Positions 23,580 through 61,432 of a stretch of 64,000 nucleotides of DNA are shown one piece after another (positions within the stretch are counted from its first letter, which is position 1; each line of letters starts with the position of its first letter). The notes beneath the pieces are model-generated. The model worked only from the letters and a program-made list of their open reading frames with translations. It was not told the DNA's origin and ran no database searches. Source of the DNA: Thereva unica (taxonomy: Eukaryota > Arthropoda > Insecta > Diptera > Therevidae); NCBI GenBank assembly GCA_949987705.1, contig OX465283.1, positions 134,504,101-134,568,100 of the forward strand. The letters are read 5' to 3'. The translations under genes and the position numbers were made by a program.

Positions 23580-24776
23580 ATGAAGTTTTCAATTGTAGCT
23601 TGGTGTTTAGTTTTTACATTTTATAAAAATACTGCCAATTCATTAGCTTGTTCTATTGAATTAGCGGAGTATCAGCCAACAGCTATAGGACTTCGTTCTT
23701 TCGGAGATAATTTCATAATTTCGAATTTAGAAAACACCAGAGAAATTTCTGCAACAAGAAGTATTTTTCTATATTGCGAATCGTTTAGATATAGAGAGCA
23801 TAAGTTTTCAAATAGTGATCATGAAATATACTGCAATAAGCAAGGTGAACTTATTATATCAATTGAAAAAGATTGGTATGATTATTACGACACATATCTA
23901 AAGTGCGAGAATGAACTATCGTTTTATCAGGTAGAGAGTAAATATTGTAATCATCAAGCATTTGCATTTGGTGCAAAAATAAGAAATGAGTCAGTTGTCC
24001 TTGCTGAAGTTTGTTATAATTTTGACAGTATGAACTTAGAATATCTTCATTATACGACGTGCAGGCGAAGCAATTTACTCAATAAGCAAATTGATCATAA
24101 TCCAAATTCTGCAAATGTTGGTGAAAAGATTGCCAAAGATAAATTTACATTTGACTATCAAAACAATTTTGCTATAAACATTAAAAATAAATTAAAAATT
24201 CAAAAACCTCAAGTGAAATTGATCGACTATGAATTAGGTGAACTTGTTGCAGCCACAAATTTTAACAACATTCTCAAAAATTTGACTCAAAAAAACGATT
24301 TACCACTAGTGCCGTGGTGGAAACCATTAAAAGACGGAAATTGGATAACCTATCAAGAAAATTTAAAAACTTATACGCGCAATCAAAACTTTAGTGTTTT
24401 TACGGGGACATCCCATAAGGTATCATATCCAGAAAATTTCTTATGCAGTGCTGATGTTGATCTTACATACGAAATAAATTCCGGAGAAAACAATATACCA
24501 CTGTACATTTGGAGTTATATGAAGATGAGAAATGAAACAAATAATCCGAACGATGTGGTTATAATTGGGTTAAATACGCCATTTTTTGAACCTTCGCTAA
24601 TTTTGTGCACTGACATATGCTCCGGCATAGCTTGGCTAGAAGAACTAGAGGTGACAAGAAAAATGCAAGCTTTTGGATATATATTTTGTTGTGATCCAGG
24701 TGAAGTTGGAACAATTTTGGATGGATTCCCAAAAAAAGTGTCATTCTCTGATAATAAATTAAAACCAAATATTTAA
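23580..24776 (+). CDS. Secreted dsRNase-like pseudonuclease, gene 1 of five
   Basis: A 398-residue, single-exon protein with a signal peptide (1-~21, MKFSIVAWCLVFTFYKNTAN). The N-terminal Cys-rich domain has Cys at 24, 66, 85, 109, 123 and 145. The C-terminal Endonuclease_NS domain (~185-385) carries FTGTSHK (274-280), IPLYIWSY (306-313), VIIGLNTPFF (327-336), LCTDIC (342-347) and GYIFCC (366-371), all matching insect gut/saliva dsRNases. Aligned without gaps to that family, the RGH motif reads L219-G220-E221, the metal-binding Asn is K251, and the catalytic Glu is Q259, so hydrolysis is not expected. The fold is sure; function is inferred (nucleic-acid binding or another secreted role). Gene 1 has an extra Cys at 161. 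From codon ~166 it is identical to gene 2. Poly(A) signal AATAAA near 24804. Confidence 0.88.
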   Translation: MKFSIVAWCLVFTFYKNTANSLACSIELAEYQPTAIGLRSFGDNFIISNLENTREISATRSIFLYCESFRYREHKFSNSDHEIYCNKQGELIISIEKDWYDYYDTYLKCENELSFYQVESKYCNHQAFAFGAKIRNESVVLAEVCYNFDSMNLEYLHYTTCRRSNLLNKQIDHNPNSANVGEKIAKDKFTFDYQNNFAINIKNKLKIQKPQVKLIDYELGELVAATNFNNILKNLTQKNDLPLVPWWKPLKDGNWITYQENLKTYTRNQNFSVFTGTSHKVSYPENFLCSADVDLTYEINSGENNIPLYIWSYMKMRNETNNPNDVVIIGLNTPFFEPSLILCTDICSGIAWLEELEVTRKMQAFGYIFCCDPGEVGTILDGFPKKVSFSDNKLKPNI

Positions 24777-24864
24777 AGTTAAATTTTACTTGTGAGTTAT
24801 AAAAATAAAGAATGTCACGTTATATTTTATTTTGTTTTCGTACAAATACATATTCTCTTTCATA

Positions 24865-25030
24865 ATCAGGAGCTCCACAGCCTATTGCTGGCCTTGGCTG
24901 CCTCCAGCATTTGCCTCCATAATTCTCGAAGCCTGGCCCAACTTTTCCAGTTTCTTATATCCAACTGTCTCAAGTCAACCTCGACGTCATCTATGTATCT
25001 TTTCTTAGGGCGACCGTGGGGCCTTTTGCA
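24865..25030 (-). pseudogene. LINE ORF C-terminal fragment, copy A
   Basis: The minus strand reads KRPHGRPKKRYIDDVEVDLR…NWKSWARLRELWRQMLEAA. That is the Arg-rich C-terminal tail seen after RT in APE-type LINEs (compare GRPRRRWIDSV in the intact LINE at 46586-49663). Only the last ~50 codons remain. It lies directly behind the poly(A) region of gene 1. Confidence 0.75.
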
Positions 25031-25207
25031 CTAAACTACAAGTACTTGTATTACAAGCGATTTTTTACATTTTACAAATTCTGTTGCACAAAGCTACAAG
25101 CCCGCCCCTCAACTTACAAGTGTAGAGAGCGAATTTTACAAGTGGGATATTCCGATTTCCCTAGTTTCTGTTGCACGAAACTACAAGTGTAAGTTCAATT
25201 AGACTTA

Positions 25208-25611
25208 GGGCTGGTTTCACAGTGCGAACTTAAGTTTTCCTTAAACTTAAGTAAATTTTTTCACTTAAGTGAAACTTAAGTTAAATTCGGTTTCACAGTG
25301 CAATTTTTTCTTCTGCTTACTATTATATTTGTTTCTTACGGCGGCACTTCAATATTGTAAATTATGAACTTACAATAGCCGAACTTTACATGTAAAATTT
25401 CCTTTTAATCGCGTTTTTCTTGAAATGTACTGGAATCAACTGACGTTTGAATTTTCTATGCATTCTGATTTTAGAAAAACTTAAGTCTAGGGAATTTGCC
25501 ACTTAAGTTACACTTAAGTAAATTTTAAGTAGCAACTGTGAAACAGCCATCCATACTTAAGTTTAACTTAAGTTAATTTTTATACTTAAGTTCGCACTGT
25601 GAAACCGGCCC
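25208..25611. mobile_element. PIF/Harbinger-type MITE, copy A (404 bp)
   Basis: The left TIR GGGCTGGTTTCACAGTGCGA and the right TIR (opposite strand) GGGCCGGTTTCACAGTGCGA are flanked by the 3-bp duplication TTA (25205-25207 and 25612-25614). The interior is rich in ACTTAAGT palindromes. A TWA duplication with GGGC ends is typical of PIF/Harbinger. It sits within a CTACAAGT-rich repeat (25030-25200 and 25615-25690). Confidence 0.88.
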
Positions 25612-25614
25612 TTA

Positions 25615-27548
25615 GACTTGTAGAATTCTTAGTTAAATTTTATAGACAAACTGAGATGTGTAAGACTTTTACAAGTCAGTTAGTGATCACCGGTTTGAGT
25701 TAAAACACCTTTGTAGCTGAAGTGTTTTAAATTAAACAGAAAAATGTTTTTGTTTTTGGGATGAAAATGATAATAAATTTTGAAGCTAGTGATAATGCGC
25801 CTTTCCACACTTGTATTCTTGCTGCAGTATTCTTACCGGTTTTTTGGAAAGGGGTAACAGAATCAAGGAGAATTCTCTGCAAAAAGCGATGAACTTAGAG
25901 AGAAATAGGCAGCACAATTTAAGCCTCCCAGCAGGAAAAAGTGGTCTCTGCGAGTGATGTAGGAATTAATACCCCGGACATGTTTTCCGTTGCCATGCAT
26001 TTAACATTGGCATGTCATTGAAGGAGAGGGCTCCTTCTGACGTCCAAAAGGTCTAAAGAGAGTACTCCTATAGAGCTCCAAATAGATTTCATTTAGGGTA
26101 CTCCCGTGAAACTCGCTGTAGACTGAAATTGGAGATCTCATCCTGAGTATGAAATGGAGGACTTCTTTTTAGCTCGATCTGCAAAAAATATGTGTTCTTC
26201 TTCTAATTTATTAAATTTATTAAGTAACTTTTTTAAAGACGCGAATAATGCATTTTTCATTGCTCTTAGCACTGCGGTTAGATGCAGAGTAACGACATCC
26301 GAATAAAACAGAAGTCCGAGTACTCACGAGTATGAAATAATAAAAAAACAGAAGAGAAGCTCATAGAGTCATATCACCTAATGAAATAAAAACACAGTCG
26401 TTGGTATAAGTTCTCTAATCAATGACTAAGAACGTATTTGGGATGGTTCATTTATTCATCCTTTACGGAGGTCTCCCAAATTACCTGCTGGGCTATTTAT
26501 CGAGCTTCAACTCACTAACACAAATAGCTGAGCAGTTTGTCGGGGTCAGAGACTTTAAGCACTCAATTCGAAATGAGGAGAAAATTACACGCACACATTC
26601 AAGCAGTTAATCAGAATATGCATGCTGACGCCGCGGTAAGAATAAGGGTGTAGAAATCAGGATTGTTGTCAATTCCGTTTGCATACTGCAGAAAGAATAC
26701 TAGTAAAAACTACAATAAATTTAGAGAATAATTTGAAGTGTCAGAAACAGTGATCGAAAAATATTATATACTCTACAGCTCGTCGACGAATTCGTTTTGA
26801 GCATGTTGAAGCGCTGCTGATAAATTAGGAAGCAAGTGACTTCATTTGGAGATTCCGACTTGCTAGACTTGATGCAAAAGGCCAACTGCTTTGAAACCAT
26901 TGGAAATTCCTGGAAAAGCGATTTTTGAAAAATCGCTAACTTGGTTGATTATATGAGGTTTTCTACGCAACCACCAAAAAACATGTCATTATGAAAAACG
27001 TTCGTTCATTGTGACCATTAAAAAAAGCATCTTGTTGATATGCAGGAGCGGATTTTTAAAAATAAAAATATAACAAGAAATATGGTTGTTGATGTAGGTA
27101 CTTAAGTAGACACCCTCATAAAATCGACTAAATTTAAGATTTTTCAAAAATTTCAACGTTCAATTGTTCAATTTCAATTGTTTTTTAAGTTTTCTAAATG
27201 AGTTTTCCAATTAAAAACCTATCTTACAAAAAATGGCACCATTGTTAAATAACGTTAAAAAGAGTAATATATAGATAGATTGTTAATTACTCAAAAAGTA
27301 AGGAACCGATGTTGTTGAAATTTTTTTTACATTCCAGGGACTACATAAACACATCTTCTGCCCTCTATGTGCAGTTATTATGAATAAAGAAATAGTGAAA
27401 ACAACATGATTTGTAAATTTTGGAAGCTGTTTGCAAGGTCGGACTTGCACCTAGTGACATCTAACAGGGACCGAAATTTTAATAACGAATACTTTCTCCA
27501 AGGCATACTTAAAGTTTTGAAAGAAATGTAGAAAAAGTACTTATTTTA
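25615..27548. other. Non-coding spacer, copy A
   Basis: No gene is recognised. A 62-codon frame at 26422-26610, duplicated exactly at 35157-35345, lacks family motifs; its conservation reflects the recent segmental duplication. The spacer runs up to the 5' TC end of the Helitron. Confidence 0.5.
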
Positions 27549-27839
27549 TCTATATAAATATAATTGGAGTGTCTGTCTGTGATTTCAAAATAAGTTTTTT
27601 TTTAATTTTATATGGTTTTTTACATGATTTTAAAACGAAATCACGCATTTTTAAAATTTTTGTGTGTCTGCATGTCTGTATGTCTGTCTGTCTGTTTGTT
27701 CGGGCTAATCTCGGAAACGGCTAATCCGATTGGGATGGGACTTTCACTGGAAGATTCAGTATTTTGGCGGGCATGTTTTAGGCTATTTATATGCACTATA
27801 TATTAGCTCTACCTGTATGTATGTATGGATGTATGTATA

Positions 27840-28590
27840 TAAACAAATCTTGAAAATTGTTTTTGACCCACTTCCATATAACCGATCAGCTTCAAATTTT
27901 GCACACATGCACAGTTCAAGTGACAATGCAATCTGACCATTTTAGAAAAAAATCAAGATGGCCGCTTCAAGATGGCGGCCGAATTTCGCAATTATTCTCG
28001 CTGACCCCCGACATGGGTATCAAATGAAACGGAATGATAAGTATAAGATAATTACCTATTTGGTGTCATTCCAAATTCAAAATGGCGGCCGGAACAAAAT
28101 GGCGGCCAACACAGATAGCGGATTACTTTTTTATTTACATCACGATCGGTATGGGTATCAAATGAAAGGATATAACAAGTAGAATACTATTAGCTGGGTG
28201 GTGCAATTCTAAATTCAAAATGGCAGCCAACACAAAATGGCGGACTACCCATTTTTACAACGCTCTCGGTTTGGATACCAAATAAAAGTGTATGATGAGT
28301 AGACTGCAGTAAGCTGGGTAACCTCATTTTAAATATCGGTCACAACAAAATAACCAAACACATATGTATAGTAAAGTAAAAGGTAGAAAACTAAAAATAT
28401 AGTTTAAAAAACTTAAAAATATGCTTTTGTTTAAAAATGAACTAAAAAGTAAATAATTATATTGAATGAAAACTTTTTTGCTCAAGCCAGTATATTTAGT
28501 ATATGGGGCGCTAGCGAAAAGTGGCAGTAATAATAAAATAAGAATATAGGTAAAGTCCCACGCTTTTTAATATTTCGAAATGTAGGTTAT
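27840..28590 (+). repeat. GGGTATCAAATGAAAGG array and palindrome remnant, copy A
   Basis: The same lead-in and ~120-bp units as 7190-7790 are followed by a left palindrome arm (28385-28510, ending GTATATGGGGCG) and a truncated right arm (AGTCCCACGCTTTTTAATAT near 28555). Its position between Helitron ends suggests that the array belongs to this Helitron family. Confidence 0.8.
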
Positions 28591-29131
28591 TTGGCCAATA
28601 TGAGATCAGGACAGTAGCAGAGATTTCGTCAACTTTACTCACATCAGGAAGAACAGCTCATTCTATGCTTAAGATACCGATCGAAGAAGATCATATGGAA
28701 AATCCTGCGTGGAGCAAATCTAAAAACCTGCGTGGAAAAAATTTAAAGTTTTACAAGACTGCATGATGGCTGTCTGCGAATGCGATGAGTGTACTATGGC
28801 AAATAAAGTATCTATTAACAGAACACCGCGAGATTTAAGATGTAAAAACCTATTATTTTGGGGAGAAACTGTTTTATTGGCATAGATTCGGGGCAAATGT
28901 TGCCAGCTGTCCGGACAAATATGTGGGCCGATGATATTGATGCATTTCAGAAATGATCACTCATTTAGGGACATATTGGAAAACGTCATTTAAAGCAAAA
29001 AATGAGAACGCAATCAGAACACTCAGAATTCTCTCCTTAACATAGGATATACAATAGAAAATGCTCTGAGATTAATGAGAATGATGACAGTGAGCTGCTC
29101 GCTGTTTGAGAAACATGGCACAGCTGAGGCC
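28590..29131 (+). pseudogene. Helitron Pif1-type helicase fragment, copy A
   Basis: Conceptual reading with frameshifts gives EIRTVAEISSTLLTSGRTAHS (helicase motif after Walker A), then CECDECTMANK (Walker B, DEC-T form). Next comes FWGETVLLA…FRGKCCQLSG, corresponding to the LAGDFRQ-type motif III. This order is that of Helitron RepHel helicases. Stops and frameshifts make it non-functional. It runs in the same direction as the Helitron termini, which supports the element call. Confidence 0.7.
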
Positions 29132-30615
29132 TATGGATAAATTTATTTATTTATTTAGTTAACTACAAATAGCCTACGGCTAATACATATATACAGATAT
29201 ATTTATAACATACACAGCCATTCTTATAACTATTATAGATTTTTACACTCACATATAAAGTTAAATATTCCTAACAAGTACATATAAATTTAACCGTCTT
29301 TTGTAGTTATAGCACCGTATCACATTGCAATTATTAAAACAGTTTTCATACATTAACATTTAATTACTATCAAGCCATAAGCCTACTTTTTCCCTAAAAT
29401 TTTTAATTGATCTAACTTGTTTAATTTCGACTGGCACCTGGTTATATAATTCAAGTCCATTATTAAAAACTGATTTTGAACCTTTACTACTATTTACATT
29501 CACAAGATGGAATTGATGTGCTTGTCTAGTAGGGTAATTATGAATATCTGTATTTTTTCTAACCAGACACTCTAAATATTCTGGCAGTAATTTATTTTCT
29601 AATCTATAGATAAATGTTAGAACATCTCTTTTAATTTCATTTTCTATTTTTAAATATCCTAATTCCTTCAGCATACTGTTGATACTTTCACTACGTCTTT
29701 TGTTTAAAACCGCTCTCATTCCTTTATTAAAATTCTTTTGTAGTTTTGTTATCTCCTTCTTATTTGCCATTGTTAGTATCGTAGAACAGTACTTTATATG
29801 TGGCACCAAGATTAATTTAAATAGCAACTCCTTTCCTTTTCTTGAAATGGTTTTTCTTAATTTATACAATAAGTTAACTTTCTTCGCTATTTTTCCACTT
29901 AAGTACTCCACATGATCATTGAAACTTAACATATTATCAATAATTACCCCAAGATATTTGTATTTTCGAACCCATTCCACTTTTGATCCCATAAGTAGAA
30001 CTTCTTGCCCTCTTTCTGCTTCTTCTCTAAATTTTGGCTTTCCTAATACCATACATTTTGTTTTCTGTACATTTACACATAACTGATTCCTACAAAGCCA
30101 CTCATATACAAGCGATAGTTCTTCATTGACTTTGGCGATTACATTCTGTATCTTTTGTCCACATAAATAAATTAATGTGTCATCTGCAAACATGTGTATT
30201 TTACACTGTTCAATCACTCTTCGGAGATCATTTATGTATAATATAAATAACAGAGGTCCCAATTTGCTGCCTAGTGGTACACCATGCTTTACTTCCTTTT
30301 CAATAGACATACTGTCCTTGAATTTCACAGTCTGGCACTGTCCCCTTAGATAATCTTTGATCCGTTCATAGACTCTACCAGTTATATTATACACTTCATA
30401 CAGTTTCTTTAACAACAATTCCCTATTTATTGTTTCAAAAGCTCTTCTGAACACTGCCACTACTCCATTTCCTTTATCCATCGCTCATAACCACTCTTCC
30501 ACCACTAATTGGAGTGCTGATTCCGTACTATGTTGTTCTCTAAATCCCGATTGATGTTCCGTCAACAACCTATTTTCTTTAATATGTTTCATTAAATTAG
30601 ATATATGGATAAATT
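29132..30615 (-). mobile_element. 5'-truncated LINE inside Helitron, copy A
   Basis: The LINE is flanked by a 12-bp target duplication TATGGATAAATT (29132-29143 and 30604-30615). On the minus strand it ends in an (AAAT)n-type tail at ~29144-29155. It contains the RT frame at 29360-30481 plus ~110 bp of upstream RT sequence (reading …LTEHQSGFREQHSTESAL) closed by an in-frame TGA. The 5' truncation removes the endonuclease. Confidence 0.9.
29360..30481 (-). pseudogene. LINE reverse transcriptase (5'-truncated), copy A
   Basis: A 373-codon frame with RT fingers/palm from AFETINRELLLKKLYEV, the HGVPLGSKLGPLLFILYIND block, and the catalytic FADDT at residues 98-102. These are followed by LCVNVQKTKCMVLG, KYKYLGVIIDN and the long C-terminal extension ending in LPxxIKQVRSIKNFREK. 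It resembles jockey/CR1-like LINEs. An in-frame TGA lies immediately before the Met, and upstream RT codons continue to 30603, so the Met is not a true start. It is identical in sequence to copy B (38095-39216). Confidence 0.85.
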
Positions 30616-30940
30616 AGTGATGTCGTATTTAGAGAAGAAGCGTTATATAGATCACGATTTATGGTGGGAGGTATGTAAGAATGACGCGGATATTTTGATG
30701 AGCGATATTTATGACGATTTCGAAAATATCAACTCAACTAAATCGACTCAACTCGGTAATGCCACAAACGTTGTAATACTTACAAGTGAAGCATCTACCA
30801 TCGTTTATAAACAAGCGTTAAAGTGGATTGCTATCCAGTGCCAGTGCGGGCGGTATGACCGGAAACGACGAAACACGAAAACGGGAAGCAGCAACTGTCC
30901 TTTTAAGGATCAAATCAGTAGTATCGTTTTAAAATGTTAG
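30605..30940 (+). other. 111-codon frame in Helitron, unknown
   Basis: MDKLVMSYLEKKRYIDHDLWWEVCKN… is acidic at first, then Ser/Thr- and Lys-rich. Its start lies in the target duplication of the nested LINE. Before the LINE arrived the frame extended a few codons farther 5' (MAQLRP…). I recognise no family. It may be decayed Helitron coding sequence or a captured fragment. It is duplicated at 39340-39675 with one Gly/Ser difference. Confidence 0.3.
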
Positions 30941-32096
30941 CAATCTTCGTCTCAAGCCATGTTCGCCATGGGGCAAGTTCAGTGTGTCAATTATCTGAGA
31001 ACGTCAAAATCTACGAGCACAAGACATATTCTGAATAAAATTGGCTAGGTATCTGTTGTGCACGTAGTATAAAAATTTTCCGATGATTAACCTCGAATTT
31101 TAAAAAAAAGGTGTAGGTAACATATTTTTATAGTCAACTCTCAAGTTTTTTATATATCCAAAATCATGTCTTGCAGATTTGCTCTATGTTTCATTATACC
31201 CTTTTCTTATTCCGGACTATGCACACATAATTTTGTTTTATTAAAAGGCGTTGCGACGCACGTGGGTTTTTGCTAGTTCACAATAAGTTAATTTAAAAGT
31301 TATGCGGTCAACCAATTTGTGAATAAACTCAGGGTGTTCAATTACACCCTAAAACGAAGCGATTACGACAGTAATCTCTCCTATGGGCCAAAAATGCTAT
31401 GAAAACGCTTCACCGACTAGCTTATTAGTTTAAAGCTATTACATTCATCTACATGCTTACAATTTCTATTATTTAATTTAAAGTAATTGGTTTGCTAATC
31501 AACCCGTTATGATGATTTTGGAGTTATATAAACGAAGTTGAGTAAATTTAAGTGAAAAAATTAACTTATAATACTATTAAACAAAGTGGACTTATTCCAA
31601 CCACAACCAAAAAAGTAATTTTATTAATTTTGAAAGTGGTTTAAGTCCACTTTAGCTTATTTTTCGAGTATTGTTTATAAAATGTATTACGTTATATATT
31701 CTAACATGTTTAAGGTCACAAAGGCAGGAAAGCAACTTACCTAATAGCAGTTAACAATATTTTTGAAACAATTCAAACGCAAACCTTTAAATATCTCTAT
31801 TTAAGAATTTGTGTACTTAAACCACTTTCAAAATAAATGGCCCATATTTAAAAATGAATTTGTCACCCTTTCAGAAGATGCTTTAATCCTTTCCTGTTGA
31901 TCTGGCAGTTGTCGTATGCCTTATGTTGCCATAACGACTTAATTGCAACTCCTTAAAAAAACATAAACTATAAAACAAAACCAACTCGTTACTTACAAAT
32001 CTGCTGCCTTATCAACTAAATATACTCTGATGGGCTCAGTGTGCATCAATATAAAATCACAGCCCAATTTTAAATATTAAATTAAACTTAAATTTC

Positions 32097-32239
32097 CTAT
32101 CTTATCTTATATGAGCACAATGAGCACAATGTATATTCTTATTGATAAAAAATATGAGAAAATAACAAACAGTTCCTTTGTGCCGTTTTATGTTGAAATT
32201 ATCTCCAACCTCTTTGACTTGGACTTCCAACTATAAAAA
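32097..32239 (+). promoter_or_regulatory. Gene 2 promoter: tandem GATA-type block, TTATCT, TATA box
   Basis: CTATCTTATCTTATATG (32097-32114) holds two overlapping TTATCT-type sites. A further TTATCT lies at 32199-32204 and TATAAAAA at 32232-32239, ~75 bp before the ATG. All three elements recur at the same spacing before gene 3, and similarly before genes 4 and 5. Binding by GATA factors is an inference from the motif. Confidence 0.6.
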
Positions 32240-32313
32240 GGATTTTAAATACAATCTGGCTGATTAGTTTACGCTGGGTTTTCCGACTAGAAAGTGTGTA
32301 GTTTAAATACAAA

Positions 32314-33510
32314 ATGAAGTTTTTAATTTTAGTTTGGTGTTTAGTTTTTACATTTTATAAAAATACTGCCAATTCATTAGCCTGTTCTATTGAATTAGCG
32401 AAGTATCAGCCAACAGCTATAGGACTTCGTTCTTTCGGAGACAATTTCATAATTTCGAATTTAGAAAACACCAGTGAAATTTCGTCAACAAGAAGTATTT
32501 TTCTATATTGCGAATCGTTTAGATATGGAGAGCATAAGTTATCAAATAGTGATCATGAAGTGTACTGCAATAAGCAAGGTAGACTTACTATATCAATCGG
32601 AGAAACCTGGGAATATTATTACGACTCATCACTAAAGTGCGAGAATGAACTATCGTTTTATCCGGTAGAAAGTAAATATTGCAACCATCAAGCACTAGCA
32701 TATGGTGCAAAAATAAGAAATGTGACAGTTGTCCTTGCTGAAGTTTGTTATAATTTTGACAGTATGAACTTAGAATATCTTCATTATACGACGAGCAAGC
32801 GAAGCACTTTACTCAATAAGCAAATTGATCATAATCCAAATTCTGCAAATGTTGGTGAAAAGATTGCCAAAGATAAATTTACATTTGACTATCAAAACAA
32901 TTTTGCTATAAACATTAAAAATAAATTAAAAATTCAAAAACCTCAAGTGAAATTGATCGACTATGAATTAGGTGAACTTGTTGCAGCCACAAATTTTAAC
33001 AACATTCTCAAAAATTTGACTCAAAAAAACGATTTACCACTAGTGCCGTGGTGGAAACCATTAAAAGACGGAAATTGGATAACCTATCAAGAAAATTTAA
33101 AAACTTATACGCGCAATCAAAACTTTAGTGTTTTTACGGGGACATCCCATAAGGTATCATATCCAGAAAATTTCTTATGCAGTGCTGATGTTGATCTTAC
33201 ATACGAAATAAATTCCGGAGAAAACAATATACCACTGTACATTTGGAGTTATATGAAGATGAGAAATGAAACAAATAATCCGAACGATGTGGTTATAATT
33301 GGGTTAAATACGCCATTTTTTGAACCTTCGCTAATTTTGTGCACTGACATATGCTCCGGCATAGCTTGGCTAGAAGAACTAGAGGTGACAAGAAAAATGC
33401 AAGCTTTTGGATATATATTTTGTTGTGATCCAGGTGAAGTTGGAACAATTTTGGATGGATTCCCAAAAAAAGTGTCATTCTCTGATAATAAATTAAAACC
33501 AAATATTTAA
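32314..33510 (+). CDS. Secreted dsRNase-like pseudonuclease, gene 2 (chimeric)
   Basis: 398 residues, signal peptide MKFLILVWCLVFTFYKNTAN, same two-domain layout as gene 1. Catalytic positions are L219-G220-E221, K251 and Q259, so it is predicted to be inactive as a nuclease. Residues ~166-398 and the 3' flank are identical to gene 1. The first half shares many states with gene 3 (AKYQ, SS at 57-58, HEVYC, DSSLKC, YPVES, NVTVV), while its leader MKFLILVW matches genes 4 and 5. It therefore looks like the product of unequal exchange between paralogues, later touched by gene conversion. Distinctive residues are GETWEYYYD near 96-104 and AYGAK at 129-133. Confidence 0.88.
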   Translation: MKFLILVWCLVFTFYKNTANSLACSIELAKYQPTAIGLRSFGDNFIISNLENTSEISSTRSIFLYCESFRYGEHKLSNSDHEVYCNKQGRLTISIGETWEYYYDSSLKCENELSFYPVESKYCNHQALAYGAKIRNVTVVLAEVCYNFDSMNLEYLHYTTSKRSTLLNKQIDHNPNSANVGEKIAKDKFTFDYQNNFAINIKNKLKIQKPQVKLIDYELGELVAATNFNNILKNLTQKNDLPLVPWWKPLKDGNWITYQENLKTYTRNQNFSVFTGTSHKVSYPENFLCSADVDLTYEINSGENNIPLYIWSYMKMRNETNNPNDVVIIGLNTPFFEPSLILCTDICSGIAWLEELEVTRKMQAFGYIFCCDPGEVGTILDGFPKKVSFSDNKLKPNI

Positions 33511-33598
33511 AGTTAAATTTTACTTGTGAGTTATAAAAATAAAGAATGTCACGTTATATTTTATTTTGTTTTCGTACAAATACATATTCTCTTTCATA

Positions 33599-33764
33599 AT
33601 CAGGAGCTCCACAGCCTATTGCTGGCCTTGGCTGCCTCCAGCATTTGCCTCCATAATTCTCGAAGCCTGGCCCAACTTTTCCAGTTTCTTATATCCAACT
33701 GTCTCAAGTCAACCTCGACGTCATCTATGTATCTTTTCTTAGGGCGACCGTGGGGCCTTTTGCA
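33599..33764 (-). pseudogene. LINE ORF C-terminal fragment, copy B
   Basis: Duplicate of 24865-25030; the minus strand again encodes the GRPKKRYIDDV C-terminal tail of an APE-type LINE. I saw no differences from copy A. Confidence 0.75.
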
Positions 33765-33941
33765 CTAAACTACAAGTACTTGTATTACAAGCGATTTTTT
33801 ACATTTTACAAATTCTGTTGCACAAAGCTACAAGCCCGCCCCTCAACTTACAAGTGTAGAGAGCGAATTTTACAAGTGGGATATTCCGATTTCCCTAGTT
33901 TCTGTTGCACGAAACTACAAGTGTAAGTTCAATTAGACTTA

Positions 33942-34345
33942 GGGCTGGTTTCACAGTGCGAACTTAAGTTTTCCTTAAACTTAAGTAAATTTTTTCACTT
34001 AAGTGAAACTTAAGTTAAATTCGGTTTCACAGTGCAATTTTTTCTTCTGCTTACTATTATATTTGTTTCTTACGGCGGCACTTCAATATTGTAAATTATG
34101 AACTTACAATAGCCGAACTTTACATGTAAAATTTCCTTTTAATCGCGTTTTTCTTGAAATGTACTGGAATCAACTGACGTTTGAATTTTCTATGCATTCT
34201 GATTTTAGAAAAACTTAAGTCTAGGGAATTTGCCACTTAAGTTACACTTAAGTAAATTTTAAGTAGCAACTGTGAAACAGCCATCCATACTTAAGTTTAA
34301 CTTAAGTTAATTTTTATACTTAAGTTCGCACTGTGAAACCGGCCC
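33942..34345. mobile_element. PIF/Harbinger-type MITE, copy B
   Basis: Same 404-bp element and TTA duplications as 25208-25611, carried here by the segmental duplication rather than by a new insertion. Confidence 0.88.
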
Positions 34346-37300
34346 TTAGACTTGTAGAATTCTTAGTTAAATTTTATAGACAAACTGAGATGTGTAAGAC
34401 TTTTACAAGTCAGTTAGTGATCACCGGTTTTAGTTAAAACACCTTTGTAGCTGAAGTGTTTTAAATTAAACAGAAAAAATGTTTTTGTTTTTGGGATGAA
34501 AATGATAATAAATTTTGAAGCTAGTGATAATGCGCCTTTCCACACTTGTATTCTTGCTGCAGTATTCTTACCGGTTTTTTGGAAAGGGGTAACAGAATCA
34601 AGGAGAATTCTCTGCAAAAAGCGATGAACTTAGAGAGAAATAGGCAGCACAATTTAAGCCTCCCAGCAGGAAAAAGTGGTCTCTGCGAGTGATGTAGGAA
34701 TTAATACCCCGGACATGTTTTCCGTTGCCATGCATTTAACATTGGCATGTCGTTGAAGGAGAGGGCTCCTTCTGACGTCCAAAAGGTCTAAAGAGAGTAC
34801 TCCTATAAAGCTCCAAATAGATTTCATTTAGGGTACTCCCGTGAAACTCGCTGTAGACTGAAATTGGAGATCTCATCCTGAGTATGAAATGGAGGACTTC
34901 TTTTTAGCTCGATCTGCAAAAAATATGTCTTCTTCTTCCAATTTATTAAATTTATTAAGTAACTTTTTTAAAGACGCGAATAATGCATTTTTCATTGCTC
35001 TTAGCACTGCGGTTAGATGCAGAGTAACGACATCCGAATAAAACAGAAGTCCGAGTACTCACGAGTATGAAATAATAAAAAAACAGAAGAGAAGCTCATA
35101 GAGTCATATCACCTAATGAAATAAAAACACAGTCGTTGGTATAAGTTCTCTAATCAATGACTAAGAACGTATTTGGGATGGTTCATTTATTCATCCTTTA
35201 CGGAGGTCTCCCAAATTACCTGCTGGGCTATTTATCGAGCTTCAACTCACTAACACAAATAGCTGAGCAGTTTGTCGGGGTCAGAGACTTTAAGCACTCA
35301 ATTCGAAATGAGGAGAAAATTACACGCACACATTCAAGCAGTTAATCAGAATATGAATGCTGACGCCGCGGTAAGAATAAGGGTGTAGAAATCAGGATTG
35401 TTGTCAATTCCGTTTGCATACTGCAGAAAGAATACTAGTAAAAACTACAATAAATTTAGAGAATAATTTGAAGTGTCAGAAACAGTGATCGAAAAATATT
35501 ATATACTCTACAGCTCGTCGACGAATTCGTTTTGAGCATGTTGAAGCGCTGCTGATAAATTAGGAAGCAAGTGACTTCATTTGGAGATTCCGACTTGCTA
35601 GACTTGATGCAAAAGGCCAACTGCTTTGAAACCATTGGAAATTCCTGGAAAAGCGATTTTTGAAAAATCGCTAACTTGGTTGATTATATGAGGTTTTCTA
35701 CGCAACCACCAAAAAACATGTCATTATGAAAAACGTTCGTTCATTGTGACCATTAAAAAAAGCATCTTGTTGATATGCAGGAGCGGATTTTTAAAAATAA
35801 AAATATAACAAGAAATATGGTTGTTGATGTAGGTACTTAAGTAGACACCCTCATAAAATCGACTAAATTTAAGATTTTTCAAAAATTTCAACGTTCAATT
35901 GTTCAATTTCAATTGTTTTTTAAGTTTTCTAAATGAGTTTTCCAATTAAAAACCTATCTTACAAAAAATGGCACCATTGTTAAATAACGTTAAAAAGAGT
36001 AATATATAGATAGATTGTTAATTACTCAAAAAGTAAGGAACCGATGTTGTTGAAATTTTTTTTACATTCCAGGGACTACATAAACACATCTTCTGCCCTC
36101 TATGTGCAGTTATTATGAATAAAGAAATATGTAGTGAAAACAACATGATTTGTAAATTTTGGAAGCTGTTTGCAAGGTCGGACTTGCACCTAGTGACATC
36201 TAACAGGGACCGAAATTTTAATAACGAATACTTTCTCCAAGGCATACTTAAAGTTTTGAAAGAAATGTAGAAAAAGTACTTATTTTATCTATATAAATAT
36301 AATTGGAGTGTCTGTCTGTGATTTCAAAATAAGTTTTTTTTTAATTTTATATGGTTTTTTACATGATTTTAAAACGAAATCACGCATTTTTAAAATTTTT
36401 GTCTGTCTGTATGTCTGTATGTCTGTTTGTTCGGGCTAATCTCGGAAACGGCTAATCCGATTGGGATGGGACTTTCACTGGAAGATTCAGTATTTTGGCG
36501 GGCATGTTTTAGGCTATTTATATGCACTATAAATTAGCTCTACCTGTATGTATGTATGGATGTATGTACATATATAGACAAATCTTGAAAATTGTTTTTG
36601 ACCCACTTCCATATAACCGATCAGCTTCAAATTTTGCACACATGCACAGTTCAAGTGACAATGCAATCTGACCATTTTAGAAAAAAATCAAGATGGCCGC
36701 TTCAAGATGGCGGCCGAATTTCGCAATTGTGCTCGCTGACAGCCGACATGGGTATCAAATGAAACGGAATGATAAGTATAATATAATTACCTATTTGGTG
36801 TCATTCCAAATTCAAAATGGCGGCCGGAACAAAATGGCGGCCAACACAGATAGCGGATTACTTTTTTATTTACATCACGATCGGTATGGGTATCAAATGA
36901 AAGGATATGACAAGTAGAATACTATTAGCTGGGTGGCGCAATTCTAAATTCAAAATGGCAGCCAACACAAAATGGCGGACTACCCATTTTTACAACGCTC
37001 TCGGTTTGGATACCAAATAAAAGTGTATGATGAGTAGACTGCAGTAAGCTGGGTAACCTCATTTTAAATATCGGTCACAACAAAATAACCAAACACATAT
37101 GTATAGTAAAGTAAAAGGTAGAAAACTAAAAATATAGTTTAAAAAACTTAAAAATATGCTTTTGTTTAAAAATGAACTAAAAAGTAAATAATTATATTGA
37201 ATGAAAACTTTTTTGCTCAAGCCAGTATATTTAGTATATGGGGCGCTAGCGAAAAGTGGCAGTAATAATAAAATAAGAATATAGGTAAAGTCCCACGCTT

Positions 37301-38094
37301 TTTAATATTTCGAAATGTAGGTTATTTGGCCAATATGAGATCAGGACAGTAGCAGAGATTTCGTCAACTTTACTCACATCAGGAAGAACAGCTCATTCTA
37401 TGCTTAAGATACCGATCGAAGAAGATCATATGGAAAATCCTGCGTGGAGCAAATCTAAAAACCTGCGTGGAAAAAATTTAAAGTTTTACAAGACTGCATG
37501 ATGGCTGTCTGCGAATGCGATGAGTGTACTATGGCAAATAAAGTATCTATTAACAGAACACCGCGAGATTTAAGATGTAAAAACCTATTATTTTGGGGAG
37601 AAACTGTTTTATTGGCATAGATTCGGGGCAAATGTTGCCAGCTGTCCGGACAAATATGTGGGCCGATGATATTGATGCATTTCAGAAATGATCACTCATT
37701 TAGGGACATATTGGAAAACGTCATTTAAAGCAAAAAATGAGAACGCAATCAGAACACTCAGAATTCTCTCCTTAACATAGGATATACAATAGAAAATGCT
37801 CTGAGATTAATGAGAATGATGACAGTGAGCTGCTCGCTGTTTGAGAAACATGGCACAGCTGAGGCCTATGGATAAATTTATTTATTTATTTAGTTAACTA
37901 CAAATAGCCTACGGCTAATACATATATACAGATATATTTATAACATACACAGCCATTCTTATAACTATTATAGATTTTTACACTCACATATAAAGTTAAA
38001 TATTCCTAACAAGTACATATAAATTTAACCGTCTTTTGTAGTTATAGCACCGTATCACATTGCAATTATTAAAACAGTTTTCATACATTAACAT

Positions 38095-39216
38095 TTAATT
38101 ACTATCAAGCCATAAGCCTACTTTTTCCCTAAAATTTTTAATTGATCTAACTTGTTTAATTTCGACTGGCACCTGGTTATATAATTCAAGTCCATTATTA
38201 AAAACTGATTTTGAACCTTTACTACTATTTACATTCACAAGATGGAATTGATGTGCTTGTCTAGTAGGGTAATTATGAATATCTGTATTTTTTCTAACCA
38301 GACACTCTAAATATTCTGGCAGTAATTTATTTTCTAATCTATAGATAAATGTTAGAACATCTCTTTTAATTTCATTTTCTATTTTTAAATATCCTAATTC
38401 CTTCAGCATACTGTTGATACTTTCACTACGTCTTTTGTTTAAAACCGCTCTCATTCCTTTATTAAAATTCTTTTGTAGTTTTGTTATCTCCTTCTTATTT
38501 GCCATTGTTAGTATCGTAGAACAGTACTTTATATGTGGCACCAAGATTAATTTAAATAGCAACTCCTTTCCTTTTCTTGAAATGGTTTTTCTTAATTTAT
38601 ACAATAAGTTAACTTTCTTCGCTATTTTTCCACTTAAGTACTCCACATGATCATTGAAACTTAACATATTATCAATAATTACCCCAAGATATTTGTATTT
38701 TCGAACCCATTCCACTTTTGATCCCATAAGTAGAACTTCTTGCCCTCTTTCTGCTTCTTCTCTAAATTTTGGCTTTCCTAATACCATACATTTTGTTTTC
38801 TGTACATTTACACATAACTGATTCCTACAAAGCCACTCATATACAAGCGATAGTTCTTCATTGACTTTGGCGATTACATTCTGTATCTTTTGTCCACATA
38901 AATAAATTAATGTGTCATCTGCAAACATGTGTATTTTACACTGTTCAATCACTCTTCGGAGATCATTTATGTATAATATAAATAACAGAGGTCCCAATTT
39001 GCTGCCTAGTGGTACACCATGCTTTACTTCCTTTTCAATAGACATACTGTCCTTGAATTTCACAGTCTGGCACTGTCCCCTTAGATAATCTTTGATCCGT
39101 TCATAGACTCTACCAGTTATATTATACACTTCATACAGTTTCTTTAACAACAATTCCCTATTTATTGTTTCAAAAGCTCTTCTGAACACTGCCACTACTC
39201 CATTTCCTTTATCCAT
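38095..39216 (-). pseudogene. LINE reverse transcriptase (5'-truncated), copy B
   Basis: The 373-residue product is identical to that of 29360-30481, including FADDT and the in-frame stop just upstream. Identity of a non-functional frame shows how recent the duplication is; it is not evidence of selection. Confidence 0.85.
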
Positions 39217-39339
39217 CGCTCATAACCACTCTTCCACCACTAATTGGAGTGCTGATTCCGTACTATGTTGTTCTCTAAATCCCGATTGATGTTCCGTCAA
39301 CAACCTATTTTCTTTAATATGTTTCATTAAATTAGATAT

Positions 39340-39675
39340 ATGGATAAATTAGTGATGTCGTATTTAGAGAAGAAGCGTTATATAGATCACGATTTATGGT
39401 GGGAGGTATGTAAGAATGACGCGGATATTTTGATGAGCGATATTTATGACGATTTCGAAAATATAAACTCAACTAAATCGACTCAACTCAGTAATGCCAC
39501 AAACGTTGTAATACTTACAAGTGAAGCATCTACCATCGTTTATAAACAAGCGTTAAAGTGGATTGCTATCCAGTGCCAGTGCGGGCGGTATGACCGGAAA
39601 CGACGAAACACGAAAACGGGAAGCAGCAACTGTCCTTTTAAGGATCAAATCAGTAGTATCGTTTTAAAATGTTAG
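39340..39675 (+). other. 111-codon frame in Helitron, copy B
   Basis: Duplicate of 30605-30940 with one amino-acid change (QLGNA to QLSNA). The function is unknown and no domain is recognised. Confidence 0.3.
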
Positions 39676-40831
39676 CAATCTTCGTCTCAAGCCATGTTCG
39701 CCATGGGGCAAGTTCAGTGTGTCAATTATCTGAGAACGTCAAAATCTACGAGCACAAGACATATTCTGAATAAAATTGGCTAGGTATCTGTTGTGCACGT
39801 AGTATAAAAATTTTCCGATGATTAACCTCGAATTTTAAAAAAAAGGTGTAGGTAACATATTTTTATAGTCAACTCTCAAGTTTTTTATATATCCAAAATC
39901 ATGTCTTGCAGATTTGCTCTATGTTTCATTATACCCTTTTCTTATTCCGGACTATGCACACATAATTTTGTTTTATTAAAAGGCGTTGCGACGCACGTGG
40001 GTTTTTGCTAGTTCACAATAAGTTAATTTAAAAGTTATGCGGTCAACCAATTTGTGAATAAACTCAGGGTGTTCAATTACACCCTAAAACGAAGCGATTA
40101 CGACAGTAATCTCTCCTATGGGCCAAAAATGCTATGAAAACGCTTCACCGACTAGCTTATTAGTTTAAAGCTATTACATTCATCTACATGCTTACAATTT
40201 CTATTATTTAATTTAAAGTAATTGGTTTGCTAATCAACCCGTTATGATGATTTTGGAGTTATATAAACGAAGTTGAGTAAATTTAAGTGAAAAAATTAAC
40301 TTATAATACTATTAAACAAAGTGGACTTATTCCAACCACAACCAAAAAAGTAATTTTATTAATTTTGAAAGTGGTTTAAGTCAACTTTAGCTTATTTTTC
40401 GAGTATTGTTTATAAAATGTATTACGTTATATATTCTAACATGTTTAAGGTCACAAAGGCAGGAAAGCAACTTACCTAATAGCAGTTAACAATATTTTTG
40501 AAACAATTCAAACGCAAACCTTTAAATATCTCTATTTAAGAATTTGTGTACTTAAACCACTTTCAAAATAAATGGCCCATATTTAAAAATGAATTTGTCA
40601 CCCTTTCAGAAGATGCTTTATTCCTTTCCTGTGGATCTGGCAGTTGTCATATGCCTTATGATGCCATAACGACTTAATTGCAACTCCTTAAAAAAACATA
40701 AACTACACAAACAAAACCAACTCCTTACTTGCAAAGTTCCTGCCTTATCAACTAAATATACTCTGATGGGCTCAGTGTGCATCAATATAAAATCACAGCC
40801 CAATTTTAAATATTAAATTAAACTTAAATTT

Positions 40832-40975
40832 CCTATCTTATCTTATATGAGCACAATGAGCACAATGTATATTCTTATTGATAAAAAATATGAGAAAATA
40901 ACAAACAGTTCCTTTGTGCCGTTTTATGTTGAAATTATCTCCAACCTCTTTGACTTGGACTTCCAACTATAAAAA
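40832..40975 (+). promoter_or_regulatory. Gene 3 promoter: tandem GATA-type block, TTATCT, TATA box
   Basis: CCTATCTTATCTTATATG (40832-40849), TTATCT at 40935-40940 and TATAAAAA at 40968-40975, in the same order and spacing as gene 2. Just downstream, the segment GTTTACGGTGGGTTTTCCGAGTAGAGAG differs from gene 2 at a few bases. Confidence 0.6.
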
Positions 40976-41049
40976 GGATTTTAAATACAATCTGGCTGAT
41001 TAGTTTACGGTGGGTTTTCCGAGTAGAGAGTGTGTAGTTTAAATACAAA

Positions 41050-42213: not shown

Positions 42214-42566
42214 TCCTCTGATAATAAACTACTATAATCAACTATTTTAAAATATTAAAATTTTTAAAATCATGATACCTTTAAATTTACATATTCTTAT
42301 ACTTGTGAGTTATAAATATAAAAAAATATCTATTTATATTTTATTTTGATTTCGTACAAATATACTTTTCCCTTTCTACTTAATTTTTAACCCGCTCAAG
42401 CGTCACGTCACAACTTCCAGCCCTATATAAACCACCAGGTCCTAACGGCATAGTGCCGGCACAACTGCAGCGCACCTTTAGTTATATAATATAAGGTTGC
42501 AGATCATGTTTACTGGGTGCCTTCAAAATAACTGCATTATCTCTAGTTGGTAACAGGTTAAAGTAG

Positions 42567-49893: not shown

Positions 49894-49906
49894 GTTTTAG
49901 TTGGAC

Positions 49907-52569: not shown

Positions 52570-53778
52570 ATGAAGTTTTTAATTTTAATTTGGTGTTTAT
52601 TTTCAATATTCTATAAAAGTACTGCCAATTCAGTTTGTTCTATAGAAGCATTTGTGCAGTATCACCCAACAGCTATAGGACTTCGTTCTTTTGGAGATGA
52701 TTTCATAATTTCGAATTTAAAAAACATCAAAGCAATTTCGTCAGAAGGAAGTATTTTTCTACATTGCGAATCGTTTAGTTATAATAAGGAGTTCCAATTA
52801 TCAAATAGTGATCATGAATTATTGTGCAAGAATGGTGGACTTATTGTATCAATTGGAGAAAAATGGTATAGTTTGAACGCACAACTAAATTGCGAGAATC
52901 AACTATCGTTTTATCATGTAGAAAGTAAATATTGTAACCAACAAGCACTTGCATTTGGCATAAATATAAAAGACATCCCACTTGTTCTTGCTGAAGTTTG
53001 TTATAATTTCAACAGTATGAAAATAGAATACATTCATTATTACACTACAAGCAGACGAAATATTTTTCTTGATAAGCAGATTGATCATAATCCAAATTCT
53101 GCAAATGTAAGTGAAATGATTGATGAAAATAAATTTACCTTTAACCATCAATATAATGTTGCTATAGCCATTCAAAATAACTTAACAGTGCACAGACCTC
53201 AAGTGAAATTGATTGACTATGAATTACGTGAACTTGTTGCAAACGCAAATTTCAACAACATACTCAAAAATTTGGACAAAGAAAACGGACTGCCACTAGT
53301 GCCTTGGTGGAAACCTTTAAAAGACGGAAATTGGATAACCTATCAACAAATTTTAAAAACTTATACACACAATCAAAATTTTAGTGTTTTTACGGGGACA
53401 TCCCATAAGGCCAGCTATCCAGGAAATTTCTTCAGCAGTCTTGATGTTGATCTTACATACGAAATAAATTCCGAAGAAAACAATATACCGCTGTATATTT
53501 GGAGTTATGTGAAGATGAGAAATGAAACAAGTAATTATAACGATGTAGTTATAATTGGCCTAAATACGCCATTTTTTGTTATTTCGCAAATTTTGTGCAC
53601 TGACATATGCTCGGCGATAACTTGGCTAGCAGAACTTGAGGTAACAAGGAAAATGCCAGCTTTTGGATATATATTTTGTTGTGACCCAGATGAAGTTGGG
53701 GCAATTCTGGAAGGATTCCCAAAAACTGGAAAATTTTCAAATTATAAACTTGTAGAACCAACTATCGAAGAAATTTAA
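52570..53778 (+). CDS. Secreted dsRNase-like pseudonuclease, gene 4
   Basis: 402 residues; signal peptide MKFLILIWCLFSIFYKSTAN. This is one of the two more diverged members: N-terminal domain states include AFVQYHP, EGSIFLHCESF, EKWYSLNAQLNC and KDIPLVLAEVCYNF. The C-terminal fold signature is intact (FTGTSHKASYP, IPLYIWSYVK, VIIGLNTPFF, LCTDIC, GYIFCC). The catalytic-site equivalents are L219-R220-E221, K251 and Q259, again with no nuclease triad. It lacks the Cys present near residue 289 in the other four (FFSSLD against FLCSAD), so one disulphide may be missing. The C-terminal tail (NYKLVEPTIEEI) is unique. The intact frame under clear divergence suggests purifying selection on the protein. 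Confidence 0.88.
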   Translation: MKFLILIWCLFSIFYKSTANSVCSIEAFVQYHPTAIGLRSFGDDFIISNLKNIKAISSEGSIFLHCESFSYNKEFQLSNSDHELLCKNGGLIVSIGEKWYSLNAQLNCENQLSFYHVESKYCNQQALAFGINIKDIPLVLAEVCYNFNSMKIEYIHYYTTSRRNIFLDKQIDHNPNSANVSEMIDENKFTFNHQYNVAIAIQNNLTVHRPQVKLIDYELRELVANANFNNILKNLDKENGLPLVPWWKPLKDGNWITYQQILKTYTHNQNFSVFTGTSHKASYPGNFFSSLDVDLTYEINSEENNIPLYIWSYVKMRNETSNYNDVVIIGLNTPFFVISQILCTDICSAITWLAELEVTRKMPAFGYIFCCDPDEVGAILEGFPKTGKFSNYKLVEPTIEEI

Positions 53779-53939
53779 AATATTATGAACACTCTAATTT
53801 TATGTTATTCATATATTTGTGAATTATAAAACAAAATATGTCTTTTTCGTTTTATTTTAATTTTCATTTACAAGATAATATATACTCTTTCCCTAATTTT
53901 AATATCTTTCAGGAGCACAACGTACAATATTATTCATAA

Positions 53940-54651: not shown

Positions 54652-54654
54652 ACA

Positions 54655-54805: not shown

Positions 54806-54829
54806 ATAAGTACTTCTACATTATATATT

Positions 54830-56220: not shown

Positions 56221-56302
56221 TATATGCCCGCACACAACTAACTGCGTGAAAATTTTGTGTATGAAGATAAAAGAGTTGTTATTTCTAGACTTTGGCTTAA
56301 AC

Positions 56303-58440: not shown

Positions 58441-58449
58441 TCGAAGATG

Positions 58450-59240: not shown

Positions 59241-59249
59241 TTTACCACG

Positions 59250-59530: not shown

Positions 59531-59979
59531 ATAAACTAGCGTTACATAATCTTACAAAGCCCTTAATAGTTTTTCTCGCCAGTTACTTGCTAGAGAAAGG
59601 GAAAAACTAACCTGTTACTAGTGTATTACTAAAGATTAATTAATTACTTAATTATTAATTACTTCTTCTTGGGTCTGGTAAAACAAAAAAAAAAGATATC
59701 AAATTTAGGTTTGCGACTATGTAATTACCGATATATATTAGAAAAATGTCTATGCTAAGTCATTCTTAAGAGCAAGTTCATCACCCTATCGGAAGATGCC
59801 TTACATTTTGCATTGGCTGTGGCGGCTGTCATAACAAATCAATATAATCAACAAAATAATACCAACCCGATTTATTTACAAAGTTGTCTTTCTTATCAAC
59901 TACCCTCTGATGGGGTCAGCGTTGGATCAACATAAAATAACAGTCAACTTTTAAATATTAAATCAAAATGAAATTTTAA

Positions 59980-60156
59980 ATCTTATCTTATCTGTGCCCA
60001 TGAGCATAATGAAACTTATTATATCAATCCTTATTTATATAAAAATATAATAATACAATAACAGAAAACACAGTTCCAATACCACAACACAACAGTTCCT
60101 TTATTTCATTTTGGGAGAAATTATCTCCAATCTCGTTGGTTTACAACTCTATAAAA
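59980..60156 (+). promoter_or_regulatory. Gene 5 promoter: triple GATA-type block, TTATCT, TATA box
   Basis: ATCTTATCTTATCTG (59980-59994) holds three consecutive TTATCT-type sites; a further TTATCT is at 60121-60126 and TATAAAA at 60150-60156. The region upstream (GATGGGGTCAGCGTTGGATCAACATAAAATAACAG, 59908-59942) is also shared with the other genes. Confidence 0.6.
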
Positions 60157-60229
60157 TGATTTTAAATACAATCTGGCTGATTAGTTTTCGCTGGTTTTGC
60201 GACTAGAAAGTGTGTAGTTTAAGTACAAA

Positions 60230-61432
60230 ATGAAGTTTTTAATTTTAGTTTGGTGTTTATTTTTAATATTTTATCAAAGTTCTGCAAATTCATTGGCTTG
60301 CTCCATTCAATCACTTATAAAGTATCAGCCAAGAGCTATAAGCCTTCGTTCATACGGAGATAATTTCATAATTTCGAATTTAGAAAACACCAAAACAATT
60401 TCGTCAAAAAGAAGTATTTTTCTATATTGCGAATCATTCAGTTATCAACAACAGAGTTTATTCGGCAGTTACTATGAATCGTCAAATAGTGTTCATGAAC
60501 TATTCTGCGGCAATGATGGACTTATTGTATCAATTGGAAAAGTATGGGTTGAATACGACTATAGACTAAAGTGCGAAAATGAACTTTCGTTTAATCAGGT
60601 GCAAAGTAATTTTTGTAACCATCAAGCACTAGAATTCGGTATAAAAATAAGAAACGTCACAGTTGTTATTGGTGAAATTTGCTATAATTTGGGCAATATG
60701 AACATAGCATATATTCATTACACTACAAGCAGGCAAAACATTTTACTCAATAAGCAGATTGATCATAATCCAAGTTCTGAAGAAGTCAGTGAAACGACTA
60801 ATGCAAATAAATTTACTTTTGACCATCAAAACAATTTTTCTATTACCATTCAAAATAACTTAACAATGCACAGACCTCAAGTGAAATTGATCGACTACGA
60901 ATTAAGTGAACTTGTGGCAAACTCAAATTTCAACAGTATACTCAAAAATGTGATCAAAGAAAACGATTTGCCACTAGTGCCTTGGTTGAAACCTTTAAAA
61001 GACGGAAATTGGATAACCTATCAACAAATTTTAAAAACATATACACGCAATGAAAATATTAGTGTTTTTACGGGGACATCCCATACGGCCAGCTATCCAG
61101 AAAATTTCTTATGCAGTGCTGATGTTGATATTACATACGAAGAAAATTCGGAAGAAAACAATATACCACTGTACATTTGGAGTTATGTGAAGATTAGAAA
61201 TGAAACAAGTTATCAAAACGACGTGGTTATAATTGGCCTAAATACGCCATTTTTTGAACCTTTGCAAATTTTGTGCACTGACATATGCTCGGATTTAGCT
61301 TGGCTAGATGAACTAGAGGTGACAAGGAAAATGTCAGCTTTTGGATATATATTTTGCTGTGACCCAGCCGAAGTTGAAAAGATTCTGGATGGATTCCCAA
61401 GATTAGGGTTTTCAGATAATAAACTTATATAA
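60230..61432 (+). CDS. Secreted dsRNase-like pseudonuclease, gene 5
   Basis: 400 residues; signal peptide MKFLILVWCLFLIFYQSSAN. The most diverged N-terminal domain of the five, with a short insertion near residues 75-88 (QSLFGSYYESSNS) relative to the others. The C-terminal nuclease fold is intact (FTGTSHTASYP, IPLYIWSYVKIRNET, LCTDIC, GYIFCC). Because of the insertion, catalytic-site equivalents are L225-S226-E227, K257 and Q265; again His, Asn and Glu are all replaced. PWLKP replaces the PWWKP of the other copies. It is the last member in the window. The array may continue beyond 64000, though the ~2.5 kb after it show no sixth copy. Confidence 0.88.
   Translation: MKFLILVWCLFLIFYQSSANSLACSIQSLIKYQPRAISLRSYGDNFIISNLENTKTISSKRSIFLYCESFSYQQQSLFGSYYESSNSVHELFCGNDGLIVSIGKVWVEYDYRLKCENELSFNQVQSNFCNHQALEFGIKIRNVTVVIGEICYNLGNMNIAYIHYTTSRQNILLNKQIDHNPSSEEVSETTNANKFTFDHQNNFSITIQNNLTMHRPQVKLIDYELSELVANSNFNSILKNVIKENDLPLVPWLKPLKDGNWITYQQILKTYTRNENISVFTGTSHTASYPENFLCSADVDITYEENSEENNIPLYIWSYVKIRNETSYQNDVVIIGLNTPFFEPLQILCTDICSDLAWLDELEVTRKMSAFGYIFCCDPAEVEKILDGFPRLGFSDNKLI

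Follow-up and report, generated by a model that had tools for sequence, protein, structure and literature searches.

A 64,000-nucleotide stretch of the Thereva unica genome (assembly GCA_949987705.1, contig OX465283.1, positions 134,504,101 to 134,568,100 of the forward strand; the window) contains on its + strand a tandem array of five open reading frames (ORFs) of one family, each unbroken from ATG to TAA and encoding 387-402 amino acids (aa). These putative pseudo-nucleases, whose C-terminal domain probably has a nuclease fold, appear to have lost the catalytic site of Serratia-type nucleases. The genes, defined by ORF and alignment, and for g2 also by block comparison, are:

g1, 23580..24776, + strand: 398 aa, NUC-like protein with a signal-peptide-like leader; sites replaced by E221 (for His), K251 (for the metal-binding Asn) and Q259 (for Glu)
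g2, 32314..33510, + strand: 398 aa; hybrid gene with a g3-type upstream region and a g1-type 3' part
g3, 41050..42213, + strand: 387 aa; C-terminal tail of the other copies cut off by a stop; R251 at the metal-Asn place
g4, 52570..53778, + strand: 402 aa; LRE at the place of the RGH motif
g5, 60230..61432, + strand: 400 aa; LSE at the RGH place, with E227, P248, W252, K257 and Q265 at the five motif positions

A first-pass annotation of this DNA had described five intact tandem genes, open even in the diverged copies, and all five are indeed uninterrupted at these positions. Identity to g1 is 93% for g2, 89% for g3 and 71% for both g4 and g5 (range among the five copies, 69-93%). The Cys-rich C-terminal signature noticed earlier, LCTDIC...GYIFCC, is present in all five aligned copies, and the mature proteins contain 10-12 Cys and 4-5 N-glycosylation sequons. 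The proteins are apparently secreted, judging by a hydrophobic N-terminus (MKF-L-I-L-...-ANS; judged by inspection to be a signal peptide) in every copy. With eight family proteins as tblastn queries (the five array proteins and three distant relatives, P0001-P0003), no further copy, pseudogene or remnant of the family was found in the window; one weak and partial hit (15000-15092, E 0.39) is put down to chance. In the g3 region (41050-42246), the sequence past the g3 stop still resembles, in frame and at the protein level, the C-terminal tails of g5 and g4.

The active-site motif of Serratia nuclease, H89-N110-Q114-N119-E127 (spacing 21, 4, 5 and 8 residues), was placed by spacing on the sole resembling stretch of the array proteins, L-x-E-L ... 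L-K-D-G-N-W-I-T-Y-Q. A motif of the same H-N-Q-N-E kind is given for insect nucleases in PMC5738047 (this and the other papers are cited from excerpts of their text). The places of the Serratia RGH, N-x-G-x-W and E are occupied by L-[G/R/S]-E, L-[K/R]-x-GNW and Q in all five copies: the RGH place is LGE in g1-g3, LRE in g4 and LSE in g5 (g5 columns 225-227), the metal-Asn place is Lys in four copies and Arg in g3 (g5 column 257), and the catalytic-Glu place is Gln throughout (g5 column 265). The replacements reported at first pass (His by Glu, metal Asn by Lys or Arg, Glu by Gln, in every copy) are therefore exact in the alignment. The equivalents of Asn110 and Gln114 are likewise replaced, by Pro and Trp respectively, in 5/5 copies.

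A check independent of this placement gave the same picture. All spacings near the motif were searched across the whole of the eight family proteins and of five control nucleases (Endonuclease_NS proteins from five of seven loci, the partial ORF L003 and L006, a near-duplicate of L005, having been set aside), whose own motifs have a first spacing of 21-22 followed by 4, 5 and 8 (9 fits too in two). The complete five-residue motif occurs in 0/8 family proteins versus 5/5 controls; the best partial matches (4/5 positions, in g4, P0001 and P0002) are located in the N-terminal domain, and none of the window's six frames contains the strict motif. Because the search over all near spacings found the motif complete in no family member, the array proteins as sequenced have no Serratia-type site, whatever alignment is chosen, and an intact RGH, Asn and Glu elsewhere in the proteins, named earlier as a possible refutation, was not found in this sequence-based search. 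They are very probably not Serratia-type nucleases.

The distant relatives came from three protein searches, the first with g5 alone and the second with the five copies. The g5-only search found no relative at E <= 0.001; the five copies retrieved P0001 (E 2.6e-29, 24% identity), and the third search retrieved P0002 and P0003 (82% and 50% identical to P0001), the three being 24-28% identical to the array proteins. Each lies on a single contig of 1.5-1.8 kb, has no Pfam domain and no name, and need not represent another species. Viral contigs, searched with a family alignment and with P0001, and GTDB genomes, searched with another alignment, yielded no relatives. In the full alignment all eight members share 10 Cys and a C-terminal C-x-D-x-C ... 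GY-x-FCC pattern. The relatives have T, T and S at the His column, Val (3/3) at the Asn110 column, Trp (3/3) at the Gln114 column, Lys (3/3) at the metal-Asn column and K, K and L, beside a gap, at the Glu column; where the array has GNW, all three have GYT. Lys or Arg at the metal place and Trp at the Gln114 column are thus common to 8/8 members, as are D222 and E224 (a DxE stretch just ahead of the lost RGH place), H89, H163, K321, R366 and K367. Since the site is replaced in both groups, its loss would either predate the split of array and relatives or have arisen in each. The annotated changes are accordingly shared by all array copies, and the Lys position extends to the three relatives.

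The C-terminal domain probably has a NUC (His-Me finger) fold, a conclusion moderately supported by structure prediction. Among the 50 structural matches listed for the C-terminal half of an AlphaFold model, 46 are EndoG/EXOG/NucA or ENPP entries, with 10-14% identity of aligned residues to the EndoG/EXOG/NucA structures; the model was template-free and its input alignment contained no nuclease. Foldseek against BFVD gave nothing at E <= 0.001 and no hit that could be interpreted. Several results weigh against this assignment. The mean predicted local distance difference test score (pLDDT) of the model is only 40, and VIA-align, run on a first model, gave no nuclease among the 50 matches listed. 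None of the five array proteins matches Endonuclease_NS (PF01223) in Pfam at E <= 10, in a search whose HMMER filters discard most weak matches, nor do P0001-P0003 match it; the control nucleases match it in 5/5 cases (E 8.1e-45 or better). Comparison of the family with the five Endonuclease_NS proteins by hhalign and hmmsearch gave nothing significant, and 61/200 column shuffles equalled the real hhalign score. With the five array copies alone, the best local hhalign match sets L-K-D-GNW...Q on L-N-Q-GAW...E without gaps within the segment (E 0.28, a single comparison).

The profile search against Endonuclease_NS that the first-pass annotation had proposed as a check gave no match for any copy. 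Its gap-free alignment to the insect dsRNase/Endonuclease_NS core is not confirmed: it reappears for that local segment without significance, and neither Pfam, hhalign nor the shuffles support it. Its claim of a preserved nuclease scaffold has moderate support from the predicted neighbours of the C-terminal domain and none from sequence membership. Sub-threshold Pfam matches (ABC_toxin_N, E 0.068, on g3; DUF5338, E 0.045, on P0003) and NCBIfam matches far under the cut-off (AdeC/AdeK, E 0.0039-0.033, and one hypothetical family, E 0.087) are taken as chance. A PDB sequence search gave chance-level matches only (best E 0.052) and Rfam gave 0 matches.

The family is real, constrained and unannotated. 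The ratio of nonsynonymous to synonymous substitution rates (dN/dS, omega), a value of which near 1 had been named as evidence against the earlier proposal, indicates constraint: pairwise NG86 values are 0.42-0.74 (10 pairs), and a GY94-type model gives omega 0.461 for all five copies (twice the log-likelihood difference, 2 x delta lnL, 34.3 versus omega = 1) and 0.445 without g2 (2 x delta lnL 35.2; C-terminal half 0.406, N-terminal half 0.469). In 2000 runs of simulated drift of g5, the frame was still open in 0.5% at 0.10 and in 0.05% at 0.15 substitutions per site; each of the branches leading to g4 and g5 measures about 0.29 substitutions per codon, or roughly 0.1 per site. From the omega of 0.46 and the rarity of open frames under drift, it follows at the level of sequence that the copies are maintained genes. 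M2a exceeds M1a by 2 x delta lnL 12.4 for all five copies and 7.3 once the hybrid g2 is excluded, the signal falling on a few sites in a loop of the N-domain (columns 73, 106, 108, 113 and 114 with all five copies; only 114 without g2). This hint of positive selection is not relied on, because of recombination among the genes and because dropping g2 removes four of these five sites.

The history of g1-g3 can be read from a repeat detected by self-BLASTN and block identities:

tandem duplication, 23401..42228, + strand: period of about 8.73 kb; 23401-33492 versus 32135-42228, 98.2% identity overall

Six 500-base blocks, including 24401-25400 and 28392-30391, are without difference or gap between the units, and both units contain the same fragment of a long interspersed nuclear element (LINE) bearing reverse transcriptase (RT), at 29360-30484 and 38095-39219. 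Gene g2 equals g3 from -300 to -60 and equals g1 from about +494 (approximately codon 165) to its end, with a mosaic between. This combination of a g3-type upstream part and a g1-type 3' part is the expected product of unequal crossing-over, and g1-g3 go back to recent events of this kind between neighbours, which added one in-frame gene. The older copies are g4 and g5.

Among known systems, EndoG, EXOG and NucA (PF01223 structures) are the best structural neighbours of the predicted C-terminal domain; the wild-type enzymes have an intact catalytic site and are not known to have an N-terminal Cys-rich domain. ENPP1 and autotaxin also carry a NUC-fold domain within a secreted or surface protein, one that is not known to have nuclease function; there, however, the domain forms part of a phosphodiesterase (limits 629-902 in ENPP1, PMC6200793), whereas in the array it follows another N-terminal domain. 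Arthropod dsRNases, crab DSN, shrimp nuclease and Lundep, compared through the descriptions in PMC3479092 and PMC2413221, appear to resemble the array proteins in length, signal peptide, an N-terminal part followed by the NUC domain (approximately 195-376 in crab DSN) and active-site position, but they are active or annotated as active: Lundep keeps RGH, and the excerpted boll weevil nuclease paper describes the H/N/Q/N/E residues as kept in such nucleases. Parasitoid "endonuclease-like venom proteins" are likewise secreted insect NUC-family proteins, whose cutting activity is presumed in the papers (PMC4977848, PMC7930282).

The nearest precedent appears to be tsetse Tsal, as the first-pass annotation had suggested. 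Tsal1 and Tsal2 (45.6 and 43.9 kDa) have Gln for the catalytic His and keep nearly all other active-site residues as well as Pfam01223 similarity, and the same His-to-Gln change in Serratia nuclease leaves < 0.001% activity (PMC3479092). As is probable for the array proteins, they are secreted members of a nuclease family with several related genes and a lost catalytic His, and they work by binding; such a fold can therefore serve as a binder. Glu at the His column in 5/5 copies, a column assigned by motif spacing, parallels the Tsal change. In contrast to Tsal, the array has Pro, Trp, Lys/Arg and Gln at the other four positions (5/5) and no Pfam match, which speaks against regarding it as a copy of Tsal. 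The comparison is fair as a working analogy, one that covers the loss of His and not the rest of the site, of which the array retains none of the five residues, so that its loss would be the more complete. A limited search of excerpted literature disclosed no catalytically dead dsRNase-like array, Tsal being the sole dead relative encountered.

On balance, the array is rather likely to represent an old, arthropod-type family of secreted, catalytically dead pseudo-nucleases with a NUC fold that act by binding. Each protein would begin with a signal-peptide-like leader, continue with a Cys-rich and probably beta-rich domain spanning roughly residues 21-200, and end in a NUC (Endonuclease_NS, His-Me finger) fold. 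In that fold other residues stand in for the general base, the metal-binding Asn, the catalytic Glu and two adjacent residues of the pocket; hydrolysis of nucleic acids in the Serratia manner is therefore not expected. The Asn of active enzymes binds Mg2+; Lys or Arg where the metal sits may neutralise the pocket without it, and the cleft might grip phosphate or an acidic group of a partner. The proteins would most likely act stoichiometrically, as secreted binders or inhibitors in proportion to their amount, and tandem duplication with unequal crossing-over could raise the dose and reshuffle the N-terminal domain. We infer secretion, inactivity and binding as well as the ligand, which is quite possibly a protein or other partner and, somewhat less probably, nucleic acid. 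The earlier idea of selection for a non-hydrolytic secreted role holds as regards constraint and the incomplete nuclease motif, and goes beyond the data in naming binding, decoy or immune functions. A bolder, speculative version sees an ancient unnamed arthropod family of secreted pseudo-nucleases in which Lys/Arg permanently replaces the catalytic metal, so that the cleft clamps phosphate or an acidic partner without metal; the family would have been kept and multiplied in tandem to serve a stoichiometric role outside the cell.

A Tsal-like trap, a tight but non-cutting binder of extracellular DNA or RNA at a feeding site, in the gut or in haemolymph, is a narrower and less probable reading: Tsal1/2, with Gln for His, show tight binding of nucleic acids and residual activity (PMC3479092), and the predicted fold and the presence of Lys/Arg in the metal site of 8/8 members are compatible with it, but all five motif positions are replaced here, not one. 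The acidic C-terminal domains (charge between -2 and -12 across the array copies) are a weak argument against a trap; four of five control pieces are acidic too, and acidity as an objection to nucleic-acid binding was dropped, active crab DSN having an isoelectric point of 4.2 (PMC2413221). That the family is instead an unrelated secreted Cys-rich one, with GNW resembling a nuclease helix by chance, would agree with the null Pfam, hhalign and shuffle results, the GYT of the relatives, the low model confidence and the first model without nuclease neighbours. We consider this unlikely, given the 46/50 NUC-fold or ENPP matches obtained from a nuclease-free alignment and the length, domain position and Cys-rich C-terminus, which fit arthropod nucleases as the excerpted papers describe them.

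Slightly more doubtful still is a cryptic enzyme, a nuclease or other hydrolase with a new or altered active site formed by residues such as D222, E224, H163 and K257. The invariance of D222 and E224 right before the lost RGH place, and of H89, H163, K321, R366 and K367, invites this idea but also fits a structural role, and no enzyme family rises above the cut-off in Pfam or NCBIfam. Partial inflation of the copy number by assembly (haplotypes or misjoined repeats, 23.4-42.2 kb) is suggested by the long 100%-identical blocks of the two 8.73-kb units, yet is improbable: in the N-domain g1-g3 differ from one another at as many as 13 of 60 bases, g2 is built like a crossover product, and g4 and g5 are clearly distinct.

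Secreted nucleases help shape the fate of extracellular DNA and RNA in insects, in uptake of double-stranded RNA, DNA traps and feeding. If the pseudo-nuclease reading is true, the array is a second case of a nuclease turned binder, more extreme than Tsal, with the scaffold kept and the catalytic residues all lost; the loss is seen in two divergent branches, and the array copies are under selection. The family escapes Pfam, and annotation pipelines would therefore miss it.

Upstream of the genes, one further element was found by alignment:

core-promoter-like stretch, 23490..23579, + strand: 5' of g1, CAACTATAAAAAGG followed about 30 bases on by TTAGT; versions with changes lie 5' of g2-g5

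Here CAACTATAAAAAGG may be a TATA box and TTAGT an initiator.

The surroundings of the array are rich in transposons. A largely complete Ty3/gypsy-type long terminal repeat (LTR) retrotransposon (783-7041; protease, RT and integrase matches) has LTR-like ends (783-1113 and 6712-7041) that are 99.7% identical, with the polymerase part in two overlapping frames, and is a young insertion. An apparently intact LINE ORF of 1033 codons (46586-49687, - strand) matches Exo_endo_phos and RVT_1. A Mariner-type transposase fragment (HTH_48, Mos1) lies at 18905-19564 (- strand), and an ORF with a DUF4371 match at 49789-50478 (+ strand) is presumably a transposon-derived fragment. An inverted repeat at 10752-11547, with arms of about 325 bases (10752-11076 and 11229-11547, 89.9% identity), is possibly a foldback element.

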